Of a stretch of 43,077 bases of DNA, positions 2,344 through 40,858 are shown piece by piece. The position numbers were made by a program, and so were the translations under genes. The DNA lies in the IMG/VR virus record IMGVR_UViG_3300031237_000011, positions 1 to 43,077 of that record, one strand, 5' to 3'. The notes under the pieces are model-generated. The model saw only the letters and a list, made by a program, of their open reading frames with translations, was not told where the DNA came from and did not search any database. Numbering within the stretch: the stretch's first letter is position 1; each line of letters opens with the position of its first letter. Source of the DNA: a virus.

Positions 2344-2374
2344 CCCCCAGGTTCCGCGACCACCTGGGGGTTTT
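2344..2374 (+). terminator. Rho-independent terminator
   Basis: A perfect nine-pair stem (2344-2352 with 2362-2370, CCCCCAGGT against ACCTGGGGG) with a nine-base loop is followed directly by TTTT. It lies 70 bases after the secreted-protein stop and closes the left-hand plus-strand operon. Confidence 0.9.
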
Positions 2375-2407
2375 CATATCCCGTGAGATTTGGCTAGGTT
2401 TGAAGGC

Positions 2408-7343: not shown

Positions 7344-7639
7344 GCGTCGCCTTCAGCCCGATGGCTACTATCTCACTCCAGGTCCGCAAGAACGGCAGCG
7401 AGTTCATTCGCTTCCAGGCCCAGTGCCCAGCCCACCTCGCCAAGTCTAGCGACTACCAGGGCATAGACCAGACCGGCCTGCTCTTCCGCTGCAAGGAGAC
7501 AGACAGCCACATGAGCCACCTGTTCCACGCAAAGGCTCCCAGGGACATACCACACACACCAGACCAGGTGAAGCTGTGGATGGATGCACATCGGACGGCA
7601 CGAATCAGTAGCAAGGAAGTGAGGAAGCGAGGAGCATGA
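7340..7639 (+). CDS. Hypothetical protein with C-terminal EVRKRGA, 99 aa
   Basis: ATG 7340 lies in an ATGA overlap with the nuclease. Cys and His residues (CPAHLAKSS, LLFRCKETDSHMSHLFH) could form a zinc site. The last seven residues, EVRKRGA, are repeated at the end of the next protein. No family recognised. Confidence 0.68.
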   Translation: MSVAFSPMATISLQVRKNGSEFIRFQAQCPAHLAKSSDYQGIDQTGLLFRCKETDSHMSHLFHAKAPRDIPHTPDQVKLWMDAHRTARISSKEVRKRGA

Positions 7640-7923
7640 AGGTCGTACATTGCAAACGTGAACCCTACGATGTGTACATAGGGCGCCCCTCCAAATGGGG
7701 TAACCCGTTCAAGGTTGGCGCGGAGTACCAGGGCAGAACCCTACAACGCGGTGATGCGGTAGAGGCTTACCGTGATTGGCTGTTCTACAGCGACGAAGGA
7801 CTCAGGTTGCTGGAAGACATTAACGAACTCGATGGCAAGGTGCTGGGCTGTTGGTGCAAGCCTCGTGCCTGCCATGGAGATGTACTGCTTGAGGCAGTGG
7901 AAGTGAGGAAACGCGGTGCCTGA
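7636..7923 (+). CDS. DUF4326 family protein, 95 aa
   Basis: The protein carries the family signature: VYIGRPSKWGNPF near the start, an AVEAYRDWL helix, and LGCWCKPRACHGDVLLE near the end with CWC and CHGD. This compact domain is widespread in phages; its biochemical role is not established. ATG 7636 overlaps the preceding stop (ATGA), and the ribosome site GAGGAAGCGAGGAG is part of the preceding gene's repeated end. It ends in EVRKRGA like its neighbour. Confidence 0.85.
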   Translation: MKVVHCKREPYDVYIGRPSKWGNPFKVGAEYQGRTLQRGDAVEAYRDWLFYSDEGLRLLEDINELDGKVLGCWCKPRACHGDVLLEAVEVRKRGA

Positions 7924-8128
7924 CCAAAAATGGCTCAGCCAGACTATCGAGGATATGGAAGCTCTGCTCATGCGCGAGCCCTGCGAGAACTGTCCTCAAG
8001 ATGGACCCGAGCTGAGCGTGGAAGATGCGCGGCTCAGGCTCCTCCAGCGCCTCAAGGATTGCGGCTGGACCAAGAGCCGTATAAGGCATTATCTCAACAC
8101 CCACTTGCCACTATCTGTGGTAAAGTAA
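7916..8128 (+). CDS. Hypothetical protein, 70 aa
   Basis: GTG 7916 follows GAGGAAACGC inside the end of the DUF4326 gene. The sequence has a Cys pair (CENC) and a helical C-terminal half (LRLLQRLKDCGWTKSRIRHYL) resembling a small helix-turn-helix. Function unknown. The first of the three hairpin motifs begins about ten bases after its stop. Confidence 0.62.
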   Translation: MPDQKWLSQTIEDMEALLMREPCENCPQDGPELSVEDARLRLLQRLKDCGWTKSRIRHYLNTHLPLSVVK

Positions 8129-8137
8129 GCAGGCCGA

Positions 8138-8204
8138 GGGTGGCTCGGCGAAACGGGAGAGGCTCACCAACAAGGCGAGCCCCTTCTGCTATCCAGAGCC
8201 ACCC
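8138..8204 (+). ncRNA. Hairpin motif copy R1 with closing stem
   Basis: The 41-base core (8150-8190) begins GAAACGGGAGAG and ends CTTCTGCT. CGGGAGAGGCTC (8154-8165) pairs with GAGCCCCTTCTG (8177-8188) over 12 positions with one A-C mismatch and two G-U pairs. A perfect nine-pair helix (8138-8146 GGGTGGCTC with 8196-8204 GAGCCACCC) closes it. Two further copies lie nearby. There is no U-run, so it is not a plain intrinsic terminator. It sits just after a plus-strand operon and ahead of the gene at 8276. Confidence 0.6.
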
Positions 8205-8215
8205 CACTCCAAGAG

Positions 8216-8253
8216 GAAACGGGAGAGACTACCTCAAAGCTCACCTTTCTGCT
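8216..8253 (+). ncRNA. Hairpin motif copy R2
   Basis: This 38-base copy again begins GAAACGGGAGAG and ends TTTCTGCT. The base of the stem forms with G-U pairs and the same A-C mismatch as R1. An alternative pairing, ACCTCA (8231-8236) with TGAGGT (8253-8258), would break it, so the copy may switch between forms. It lies 22 bases ahead of the next start codon. Confidence 0.55.
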
Positions 8254-8275
8254 GAGGTTACGAAAGGAATCTACG

Positions 8276-8551
8276 ATGGGAACTGAATATGCAATCGCGG
8301 AGTTGGGTGACTCACTCGGCAAGGCAATCGATGGACTCATCAAGGGTGGTGGGAGCCGCTTGGACTGTCACTCCCCCCACGGGTACGACTGTCGCATCTA
8401 CTGGGTGAACGAGGTCCTACGTGTGGACATCTGTGGACTGCGCGAGAAGTCTCACACAACACTAGAGCCCGCCTTCAAGGTAGCCACTGCGCCCTTCTGG
8501 GAAGTGGTGCCTACCTACACTGATAGCCCTGACTCGGTTGGTTACCCCTAG
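8276..8551 (+). CDS. Hypothetical protein, 91 aa, flanked by hairpin motifs
   Basis: ATG 8276 follows GAAAGGAATCTACG. The protein has an N-terminal helix (AIAELGDSLGKAIDGLIKGG) and a beta-rich rest (RIYWVNEVLRVDICGL). No family recognised. Two motif copies precede it on the same strand and the third, on the opposite strand, starts at its stop codon, so its mRNA can fold end to end. It is the last plus-strand gene before the late region. Confidence 0.68.
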   Translation: MGTEYAIAELGDSLGKAIDGLIKGGGSRLDCHSPHGYDCRIYWVNEVLRVDICGLREKSHTTLEPAFKVATAPFWEVVPTYTDSPDSVGYP

Positions 8552-8590
8552 CAGAAGAGCGAGCCTAAGAGCGTAGACCTCTCCCGTTTC
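8550..8590 (-). ncRNA. Hairpin motif copy R3 (minus strand)
   Basis: Read on the minus strand this is 41 bases, like R1: GAAACGGGAGAG at the start, CTCTTCTGCT at the end. The base stem CGGGAGAG/CTCTTCTG pairs at all eight positions, and an inner stem GTCTA/TAGGC replaces the GGCTC/GAGCC stem of R1. ACCCC/GGGGT (8596-8600 with 8544-8548) closes it. It lies 28 bases after the last late gene, so it would sit at the 3' end of the late transcript. Confidence 0.58.
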
Positions 8591-8617
8591 TTCCCGGGGT
8601 GGGGTTCCGATGCGGCG

Positions 8618-8821
8618 TTAGCCGCGCGAAGTGCGAAGTTGCTCGACTACCCAAGTCACTGCGCTAGGCACGAAGCTCAGCACGATGGTGATGTACATGA
8701 TGGTGTCCACGTCGTCCACACCCAGCACGCGCGCGATAAGCATAGCTGTGGCGCTGATTACGGGGGTCGCGGTCTCGGTGGGGCGGCGCTGCAAGATGTT
8801 AGGTCGCGGTTCTGTGGTCAT
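8618..8821 (-). CDS. Holin-like small membrane protein, 67 aa
   Basis: The wording (RPTETATPVISATAMLIARVLGVDD, then IMYITIVLSFVPSAVTWVVEQLR) matches small phage holin-like proteins with two membrane segments, one weak (about 24-40) and one strong (about 44-64), and a basic end. Such proteins open the inner membrane for the endolysin. ATG 8821 overlaps the amidase stop (ATGA), giving coupled lysis genes. A GCGGC-GTTA-GCCGC hairpin without U-run overlaps its stop. It is the last gene of the late operon. Confidence 0.68.
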   Translation of the reverse strand: MTTEPRPNILQRRPTETATPVISATAMLIARVLGVDDVDTIMYITIVLSFVPSAVTWVVEQLRTSRG

Positions 8822-9779: not shown

Positions 9780-12700
9780 TTAAGCAGTTGCACCGGGTAC
9801 AACACGGAAAGTAATCGCGGCACTCTCTATCTCCTGCCAGTCGCTAAGGGTCGTGGTGCTGCGGGGCTTGAACTTGATCTGTGTGCGTTCAGGGAGCCAC
9901 GCCATTGGCTTGTCGTAGCCCGCACCTAGTAGCCGCTGGACGTTCTTCGTGTTCTGTAAGGTCGCAAGCCGGTTAAGCACGGACTGCAAGGGTTCATGCT
10001 GCTGGTCGGCTGGCAGGATGAAGGTCACTTCCTCGTTAGCTGGCCACTGGCTGACGAAGGTGAAATTCACGGGTAGCAAGTTGGGGGTCTCCGCGCTACT
10101 CGCCTCGTGGTCGCCAATAAGCCGGATGATGAGCGTGTCGAAGGTGACGCCGGGGTCGAGGCTGCTCTTGATTGTGGAGTCTACAAAGGTCTCGGCTGCT
10201 GCATCGAAGGTAATGTCTACCTCGGCGCTGGCGATGGTGAGGTCGCGTCCCGTATCTACCAACACGCGCAAACTCCCATAACTCGTGTTGTTGTCGATGC
10301 GCAGGGACTGGCTTGTCACTTGGGTAAGCGTCTTAAGCATCTCCGGTGGGCCGCAGTCGAGTTGGATGATCTGTACATAGAGTGGGCCATCCTGCTTGAC
10401 CTGTGTGGTGTTGGTCAAGTGCGGGTCGTCAAAGGGGTCAGGTGGTACGAACTCGCGGGCGACCGCGAGGCTGGTTGTACTTACCGGGATGACCCGGTAG
10501 GCGAATCCCTGCTGTGCGTAGTACGGGCACTCTGCCCATTGCAAGGTCTCGTTGGCCAGCGCGTTGCTCTTGGTTTGGAGCGCCCAACTCGCGTGCCACT
10601 TGCCGTCGAAGTAGAGCCAGCGCTGCTGCTCGCTGGCGTCGGTATAGGTGGTGTCTACGATTAGTACGTCGCCCACACTGAACATCTGCACTAGCTTGAT
10701 GGCATTGCCACCGTGGTGGATGGGCATGCCGAGGTCACGAGAGTAGCCATCGCTGCCCACCAGCACTACCTGGTTGAACAGGTTGGACCGAGGGCCGCCA
10801 CCTACAGCCACGCCGCCAAGATAGGTAGAGAGCAGCCCACAGTAGGACATCCCGGTAGCTGGATAGCTGATGCTGGCCACACCTACACTGGTGATGTCGA
10901 AGTAAGCGAGTCTGCGCTGAGAGGTTACGGCTGAGCGGTCATTTGCTTGCGGCACGAGGCAGGCGATCCTGCGCGTAGTTCCACTACTAGAGGTTATTGG
11001 GACTGCAATCCCGCCTGTGGGGAAGTCGAGTATGGTCAGCGGCAGATACCAGTAAACGGTGAGCGCCACGTAGTCAAAGGTGATCGCGTTCGCATCGAGG
11101 TTGGACTGGATGATTAGCCCAAAGCCGGGATTGTTGATGTCGTCGGCTGTCCAGGTAGTGCCCCAGAGCGTGGCCGGCCCGCCGTAGTAGATGGTCTCAT
11201 CAGTAGTGCTGTACTCCAGGTTATTGCCCTGTTGCTTGTTGTCGCCTGTCGCAACAAATGCTTTGAGAAGCTGAATCGTCGTGTCGTCGGCATTGGCCGC
11301 AACGTTAGTCTCAGCTCGCTCTACTCTTGCCGTGATGCCGTTGATGATGGCGTTGCGCGGTAGGCTGAACCCGTAGCCATAGGTCCATATCTGGGTTGTG
11401 TTGTCGTCCGAGCCCGCGCCGGTCTGCCAGGTTGCAGTAGTGTCGCTGTCGTCAGTGGCGGTGAGTGGGCTCAGCGTAGTCGCGAAGTAGGCTGACTGTG
11501 CCGTGCGCTGGGTGTAGTTTCCCACTGCCTTCGTGGAGGACTGGAGCGTTATCCCGCGCTGGTACCAGATAGTCATGGACACGGCAGCAATGCTTACCGT
11601 GGTGGTGTTGCCACTCGTGCCAACCTTTTCAATGGAGATACCCACGCCAAAGTCTGCATCGTTGACGATAGTGGGCGTAAGTGGCGCTCCCCATGTGTCG
11701 TTGTACTCGCCAAAGACACTGGCATAGAGTAAGCCAGCAACTGGGCTGATGTCCGGCGTGGTGCCGATGGCCTTGTCCTCGCCAAAGAGTGCGGCATCAG
11801 CGTCGAACAAGCGCACACTCTTGTAGTTCCACTCTGACATGACCTCTGCGCCACCACTGGGAATCTTGGCCCAGACCATCACTTCTAGCCCGGTCACGAT
11901 ATCGGTGGACTGGAGAGCGAAGCCGAAGGTGTCCACGTAGTAGTAGTGGGTAGTCTCGTTGTCCTCCACCACCGCCGTGGCGAAGTTCTCAGCCGTGGGG
12001 TCAACATTGGTGAGTGTGATGCCGTTGCCAGTGTTGGACCATGCGACCGTGCCGATTCCGCTGTTGTCCGCACCTGCGCCTGCGAAGGTCTGGCTGGTCG
12101 CGTAGGTCGTAGCGGTGGGGTTAACGCTGGTGCTCAGGTCAAAAGGCGTGGGCATGGTGAGTAGCGCATCTGTCTCGTAGACATAGCCCACCATACGGAT
12201 ACCGCCAAAGATGCCGCTCATCACGTTGATACCCAGCTCTGGTATGGGGACAATCCAATCGCAGCAATCGCCGCTCGTGTAGGCGAAGATGCTGGCCCAG
12301 GTAATGCTATTCGCTGTGGGGTCGGTCGTTCCCTTGATGCCGTCAGTGGTGCCGTCCTGCGCGCCAATGGTGAAGTAGCGCGTGGAGTTCCATACGGCAT
12401 CGGCTATCGCGCCCACGTTGTCGGTGATGTTGTCATTCGTGGAGGGCACGATAGGTATGGGTGAAGAAGTGCTCGTATCTTTGATTAAGTAAGGGCCGAC
12501 ACACATATAGGCGCGGCGGTCGTAGAGCAGGCCATGCACGCGCTTATTCGCGGTTACGTACCCGGAGAAGTCGGCAGTGATGAGCGATGTAGTCGTTGTC
12601 AGCTTGTAGGGTAGGGCTGCAATCCCAGGGATATGGCACTGGATGCCCTCATTGAACCAAACGTGGTGCTTGTCCTTGCGCCAGTCGCCAATGAGCGCCG

Positions 12701-37029: not shown

Positions 37030-37302
37030 ATGACACGGCTACCGAACAGTGAATTCGCAGGCTACGCACTAATCAGTGATGCAGGTTTCGGCAAGTACGA
37101 CGACCGCACAATCGCTGGCATCATGGATGCGCTACTCGATGACCTGACACTAGCTGGCGTTCTCGATGCGCTGGCAAGCGCTTGCCGTGAAAAGGCGGAG
37201 CACCTTCGCTCTAACTGGCAGGATGAGGCAAGCGCACGCGTTTGGGATCGTGAAGCTCGGCAGATTGACAAGCTCACAATGCGGCAAGTCCGCACATTCT
37301 AG
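37030..37302 (+). CDS. Hypothetical helical protein, 90 aa
   Basis: ATG 37030 follows GGGGGAAAGAGC; an upstream in-frame ATG at 37012 overlaps that site and is rejected. The sequence is helical (IMDALLDDLTLAGVLDALASACREKAEHL) with a basic end. No family recognised. Confidence 0.66.
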   Translation: MTRLPNSEFAGYALISDAGFGKYDDRTIAGIMDALLDDLTLAGVLDALASACREKAEHLRSNWQDEASARVWDREARQIDKLTMRQVRTF

Positions 37303-37307
37303 CCGAA

Positions 37308-37346
37308 ACGGGCTCCGGCCCGTCGCGCATGATTGGTCACATGCGC
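37308..37346 (+). ncRNA. Two tandem perfect hairpins
   Basis: ACGGGC-TCCG-GCCCGT (37308-37323) has a stable UNCG-type loop; one base later GCGCATG/CATGCGC (37325-37331 with 37340-37346) forms a second stem. They start six bases after the preceding stop, and the next ribosome site is about 30 bases on. Without U-runs they may protect or process mRNA ends. Confidence 0.5.
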
Positions 37347-37386
37347 CTGATGAAGGCAGACCACACACACACAAGGAGACGACTCA

Positions 37387-37626: not shown

Positions 37627-37655
37627 TTGACAGACTTAACCACGCGTGCTATATT
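37627..37655 (+). promoter_or_regulatory. Near-consensus promoter
   Basis: TTGACA (37627-37632), exactly 17 bases, TATATT (37650-37655) with an extended TG. It is the best sigma-70 promoter in the window and implies strong early transcription of the genes from 37679. Confidence 0.82.
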
Positions 37656-40602: not shown

Positions 40603-40630
40603 CCTCTAGCCGGGTGTAAAGTCCAGCACG

Positions 40631-40664
40631 CGCCGCTCTCTAACTCGAAGGGGGCGGCGTTTTG
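40631..40664 (+). terminator. Rho-independent terminator
   Basis: CGCCGCTCTC (40631-40640) pairs with GGGGGCGGCG (40650-40659, two G-U pairs) around a nine-base loop, followed by TTTT. It ends the small-gene operon. Confidence 0.88.
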
Positions 40665-40682
40665 CTATCCAGGTACACCCTT

Positions 40683-40858
40683 GTGACGCCCATTTAGATT
40701 CACTGTGACGGTGTGACGGGTCTACAGAGTATAGAGAGAGAGCCACAGAGGGACACATATAGATCTCTCTCTATATCTCTATCTCTCTCTCTCACTCGTC
40801 ACTTTGTATTTGGAAAATGGATTTTTGCCAGTCACACCCTTGTCACTACACCCGTCAC
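40683..40858. other. Origin-like region with GTGAC iterons
   Basis: The convergent gap 40603-40854 holds three direct GTGACG copies (40683, 40705, 40713) and four inverted GTCAC copies (40798, 40831, 40842, 40854), two of them full CGTCAC. Between them lies a purine/pyrimidine-biased tract. Iterons flanking an easily opened tract next to a replication-type ATPase gene are what a replication origin looks like; not proven. Confidence 0.42.
40730..40775. repeat. 12-bp perfect inverted repeat in a GA/CT tract
   Basis: TATAGAGAGAGA (40730-40741) pairs with TCTCTCTCTATA (40764-40775) around a 22-base loop; further CT repeats continue to 40793. Between the two iteron groups. Confidence 0.75.

Follow-up and report, generated by a model that had tools for sequence, protein, structure and literature searches.

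What ends the transcripts of two long phage operons that run toward each other, and does a short motif repeated where they meet take part in it? The window, i.e., the whole 43,077-nucleotide stretch of viral DNA that was analysed, is a 43-kb contig of an unclassified tailed phage with matches to an internal virion protein, TerL, an endolysin and a Sak4-like protein; most of its proteins have no family match. Its genes lie on the plus strand over the leftmost 8.1 kb or so, on the minus strand from about 8.6 kb to 36.7 kb, and on the plus strand again beyond, with the 8.1-8.6 kb region forming the convergent end of two long operons. The enzyme that transcribes this phage is likely the host polymerase, because a good sigma70-like promoter lies elsewhere in the window (37627-37655) and PHROGs scans of the window proteins recognised no phage RNA polymerase. 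A phage that is transcribed by the host polymerase but has no strong U-run terminators still has to separate operons that converge.

A bipartite motif at the convergent junction

The 12-mer GAAACGGGAGAG is present exactly three times in the window, every time at the junction: at 8150 (+), at 8216 (+) and at 8579-8590 (-). It is not found elsewhere in the window at zero or one mismatches. Each copy is followed, 19-22 nt on, by TTCTGCT. When GAAACGGGAGAG, a spacer and TTCTGCT were combined into a bipartite pattern, it matched 8150-8190 (+), 8216-8253 (+) and 8550-8590 (-), in agreement with the three copies of 41, 38 and 41 nucleotides given in the preliminary description; the reversed pattern, used as a control, had no matches in the window. 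Furthermore, 30 Markov-1 simulations of the window produced no 12-mer present three times within 500 bp. The motif is real, and it appears to be under selection.

We refer to the copies as R1 (8150-8190, GAAACGGGAGAG-N22-TTCTGCT, with a strong predicted hairpin), R2 (8216-8253, the second plus-strand copy, with no stable predicted hairpin) and R3 (8550-8590, on the minus strand). R1 follows the plus-strand gene that ends at 8128, and R3 follows the last gene of the minus-strand operon, which ends at 8618, confirming that copies sit just 3' of the last genes of both converging operons. R2 and R3 form an inverted repeat with 55 of 75 positions identical. Between the motif copies, at 8276-8551 (+), lies a cargo gene of 91 aa without a family match.

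Counterparts in a related phage and the search for homologues

Two IMG/VR contigs (L007 and L008) were reached via the 1038-aa tail protein that adjoins the junction. They are identical over the 19 kb compared and count as one related phage genome, with about 72% nucleotide identity to the window. Searches for other relatives by TerL, by the tail protein and by a conserved 175-aa protein retrieved, besides these two, only an 8-kb fragment that does not include the junction region and a more remote phage (G003) that does not have the motif. In the relative, the motif reads GGAACGGAAGGG...CTTCGCT (in fuller form, GGAACGGAAGGGG...CTTCGCTT) and stands at the ends of the two equivalent converging operons, after the last plus gene (L1, L007:12729-12765, minus strand of that contig) and after the last minus gene (L3, L007:12241-12284, plus strand). 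In alignment, L1 is the ortholog of R1 and L3 that of R3, and R2 has no counterpart. In both phages, then, the motif has the position expected of a terminator, behind the final gene of a transcription unit.

Where the window has its 91-aa gene, the relative has an HNH endonuclease between L1 and L3. The relative lacks matches to the small genes immediately left of R1, and a DUF4326 protein at 7636-7923 (+) is likewise not common to it. Across the R1/L1 element, 52 of 70 aligned positions are kept (z 10.5 vs shuffles), and on the R3/L3 side, in the minus operon, 69 of 95 (z 14.3). This conservation continues beyond the motifs on their outer sides, into operon ends that differ from each other; upstream of R3, for instance, the hairpin GCGGC-TAAC-GCCGC (8612-8625, minus strand) is identical and perfect in the relative.

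The columns of a five-copy alignment were sorted by their pattern across R1, R3, L1 and L3. Seven columns are alike within a genome and unlike between genomes, all of them in the halves (7, 13 and 16 in the 5' half; 45, 47, 48 and 52 in the 3' half), a comparison that comprises one genome pair and in which the 3'-half count depends on the placing of a one-base indel. Four columns (2, 5, 20 and 25) are alike between orthologs and unlike within a genome, and these are found just beyond the halves or within the spacer between them. At the level of the alignment, this pattern implies that the two halves are selected as a unit. The selection is probably exerted by one trans-acting reader, which fits better because plain gene conversion would homogenise the spacer too. 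The half-to-half spacing is 22, 19, 22, 18 and 24 nt in R1, R2, R3, L1 and L3, respectively, and such loose spacing of 18-24 nt is easier to reconcile with an RNA hairpin with a variable loop than with a DNA site bound to one helical phase.

The same observations bear on the possibility that the copies are polar DNA-binding sites, at which a phage protein on the duplex, asymmetric 12-mer blocks the elongating polymerase in the manner of mycobacteriophage stoperators. Within a genome the 12-mer does not vary; it is asymmetric, points with transcription at both operon ends and shifts in concert between genomes. Stoperators, too, are asymmetric sites, 13 bp long and oriented according to the direction of transcription (PMC9283540). 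However, the second half, 18-24 nt off, co-evolves too with a spacing that ignores helical phase, the window has only three copies, all at a single locus, whereas L5 has more than twenty sites, and the R1 and L1 hairpins exceed shuffles. We regard this explanation as unlikely.

No homologue was found outside this small phage lineage. Rfam 15 gave no match at the junction of the window or of the relative (best sub-threshold score 21.3 bits vs a gathering cut-off of 41.8), and the earlier statement that the copies match no known RNA family stands. Searches with blastn of the junction region against phages and of the R3 region against plasmids returned no matches. The exact bipartite motif matched viral contigs three times, twice inside coding genes and once over a gene start, which we attribute to chance, and a pattern of the R1 hairpin plus motif gave eight matches that are meaningful only in the two relative contigs. 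A covariance model of the five copies retrieved only those five, as seven rows, since the sequence of the two relative contigs is the same there; the next matches had E-values of 0.19 or worse. The match at E 0.19, in an Oscillospiraceae MAG contig with a distant TerL (L021), resembles an ordinary terminator, AAAAAGGGAGAGGCTT...AAGCCTCTCCCTTTTT, and was taken as convergence. This near-perfect terminator (L021 3999-4041) has the same GGGAGAGGCTT arm as the motif, probably by coincidence.

Other identities were tried and rejected. The GGGAGA start suggests a T7-type promoter, but there are no further copies and PHROGs recognised no phage RNA polymerase. An orphan CRISPR-repeat mimic (a hairpin followed by GAAAC) was dismissed since the hairpin is not common to R2 and R3. 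The window does contain a type II hammerhead ribozyme between two small plus-strand genes (37301-37365 (+), RF02276, 48.3 bits), for which the relative contigs gave nothing at gathering score. It has CGAAACGGG in common with the motif, but no CUGAUGA lies near any copy and the GAA is lost, with GGAA in the relative, and kinship was rejected. Separately, a Guanidine-II riboswitch match at 10451-10497 (+), antisense within the gene for the 1038-aa tail protein, scored 32.4 bits against a cut-off of 32 and is probably due to chance.

Predicted folding and terminator-like tails

The predicted hairpin of R1 forms about six of six pairs (z about -3.2 to -5.7), and the R1 and L1 hairpins are both more stable than chance (z about -3.1 to -3.2), whereas those of R2, R3 and L3 are at z -0.8 to 0.1 vs chance. 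R2 forms about 0-1 of 6 pairs (z about 0), the R3 hairpin is predicted only when the RNA ends at the motif end, and in two of the five copies, L3 and R2, folding does not favour the hairpin. The preliminary description had the conserved ends pairing as the base of a hairpin in each copy; this is strongly predicted for R1, is predicted for R3 only if truncated, and is not supported for R2. The nine-pair closing stem proposed for R1 is present in the window (8138-8146/8196-8204) but absent in the relative. The structure kept there near R1 is instead a smaller hairpin directly 5' of it (8133-8149, plus strand), GCCGAG-GGTGG-CTCGGC in the window and GTCGAG-GGTGG-CTCGAC in the relative. This hairpin contains the only compensatory pair found, while changes in the core pairs are one-sided (GU/GC/AU exchanges). 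Homologues at operon ends with covarying stems had been named as support; the homologues were found in one related phage, with covariation amounting to that one pair.

The copies had also been described as not being intrinsic terminators because they have no U-run. A strict scan indeed found no U-run (at least 5 of 8 T) directly 3' of a stem at the junction of either phage, and no other terminators were found there in either. Nevertheless, the description is too strong. The R1 tail TTCTGCTATCC (8184-8194, plus strand) is identical at 10 of 11 positions to TTTTGCTATCC, the tail at 40660 of the window's best intrinsic terminator (40625-40670 (+), 12-bp stem), and L1 ranks 6th among the 1154 terminator candidates in the relative's genome. 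Candidates were ranked genome-wide by a hairpin plus U-tract score that serves ranking only: in the window, 40659 (+) came first, 2370 (+) second (the terminator at 2344-2381 (+), tail TTTTCATATCC), R1 168th and R3 671st. The 40660 terminator is the top candidate in the relative too, with the tail TCTTGCTATCC (G001 position 9990). The string TTYTGCTATCC occurs exactly twice in the window; a three-way tail pattern was drawn up once the sites had been seen, and its count of three is no independent test.

A 12-nt arm of invariant sequence is not required in ordinary terminators and is missing from the window's best ones. Around the 40660 terminator (40625-40680, plus strand) the tail past the U-tract, GCTATCCARGTACA, is kept in the relative and exceeds what a plain terminator needs. 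Not far away, at 40730-40800, is a non-coding AT-rich tract of GA/CT repeats with the near-palindromic TATAGAGAGAG...CTCTCTATA.

Suboptimal terminators with an interrupted U-tract and weak basal pairs need NusG (PMC8060035), which offers R1 a plausible way to terminate in spite of a poor U-tract. Alternatively, the hairpin could be cut or bound after transcription and shield the mRNA, with termination taking place elsewhere. The 3'-UTR position in both operons, the hairpins, and halves suited to a protein or nuclease would all agree with such processing or protection, but R2 and L3 are poorly structured and the likeness of the tail to terminators would be superfluous; we consider it quite unlikely.

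Proposed 3'-end signals between converging operons

The most economical reading is that of non-canonical terminators with a weak U-tract, probably factor-assisted, or 3'-end elements. R1 and R3, with R2 as an extra copy, would be 3'-end signals that end or trim the converging transcripts, a proposal in which we place about as much belief as doubt. It is favoured because the motif ends both operons in two phages with different cargo genes and different neighbouring genes, because R1/L1 and R3/L3 align far above shuffles, because the concerted columns fall in the halves only and the spacing is loose, because hairpins are strong in R1, in L1 and in R3 truncated at the motif end, and because R1 and L1 have the terminator-like features just described at a junction with no other terminator. 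Against it are the hairpins disfavoured in R2 and L3, the low ranks of R1 and R3, the 12-nt arm that terminators do not need, and the confinement of the evidence to one genome pair and a post hoc tail pattern.

Under this proposal, the polymerase would transcribe the upstream hairpin, then GRAAC and a purine-rich ascending arm, next the variable spacer, and then the descending pyrimidine arm CTTC[T]GCT. The arms would pair as a terminal hairpin whose U-tract is short and interrupted, and there the polymerase would pause and release, probably helped by a Nus-type or phage-encoded factor reading both conserved halves. Signals of this kind would keep the operons from running into each other, with a variable cargo gene between them. 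The cargo genes lie on the same strand downstream of R1 and R2 and would require a promoter of their own if transcription stopped completely.

The same layout could belong to a small exchangeable cassette, in which R1/R2 and R3 are inverted-repeat ends where recombination swaps cargo genes. The motifs do face each other around unrelated cargo genes in two phages, R2 and R3 are 75-nt inverted near-repeats, and the relative's cargo is an HNH endonuclease; yet conservation continues on the outer side of the motifs into the ends of two distinct operons, the cargo includes no recombinase or transposase, and only the two halves are homogenised, not the spacers, which makes a cassette improbable. Finally, R1 and R2 acting as a 5' leader that regulates the lone downstream cargo gene from a weak extended -10 promoter is most improbable: TGTGRTAWAGT is kept between the phages just ahead of the hairpin and both cargo genes begin soon after the element, but a promoter scan found no promoter-like site there, R3 and L3 are kept on the opposite strand, where no gene follows them, and the element is conserved though the cargo genes are unrelated.

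Returning to 3'-end signals, we infer from the sequences that the motif acts as RNA in termination or 3'-end formation and is read in trans. A more specific version, which we put forward only tentatively and think rather unlikely, is a bipartite RNA 3'-end signal private to one lineage that co-evolves with a dedicated phage or host RNA-binding or termination factor and insulates the converging operons. A dedicated reader, of RNA or, as with stoperators, of DNA (PMC9283540), is kept in play because the 12-nt arm is identical in all copies and moves in step between genomes. If a short signal shifts in step at the ends of both operons, the lineage would be able to retune the code for its 3' ends, and the reader of that code becomes a concrete search target.

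Among known systems, the Nus-factor-dependent suboptimal intrinsic terminators of B. subtilis (PMC8060035) resemble R1 and L1 in having a 3'-UTR hairpin, weak A-U/G-U basal pairs and an interrupted U-tract, but they have no common bipartite sequence, whereas in the motif a 12-nt arm and a 7-nt tail are constant within each genome and differ jointly from one genome to the other. The stoperators of cluster A mycobacteriophages (PMC9283540) are, like the motif, short, asymmetric intergenic sites oriented with transcription and are proposed to halt elongation. In contrast, they comprise more than twenty single sites genome-wide, bound as DNA by the repressor, and the motif comprises three bipartite sites with variable spacing at one junction. 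The SAS/ESAS repeats of cluster K (PMC3203893) are similarly lineage-specific and positionally conserved, being 13-bp sequences with, in some cases, imperfect inverted repeats around a variable spacer, but they stand at translation starts in 11-19 copies per genome and not at operon ends. The motif is most likely a lineage-specific transcription stop or 3'-end signal, a variation on a known theme.
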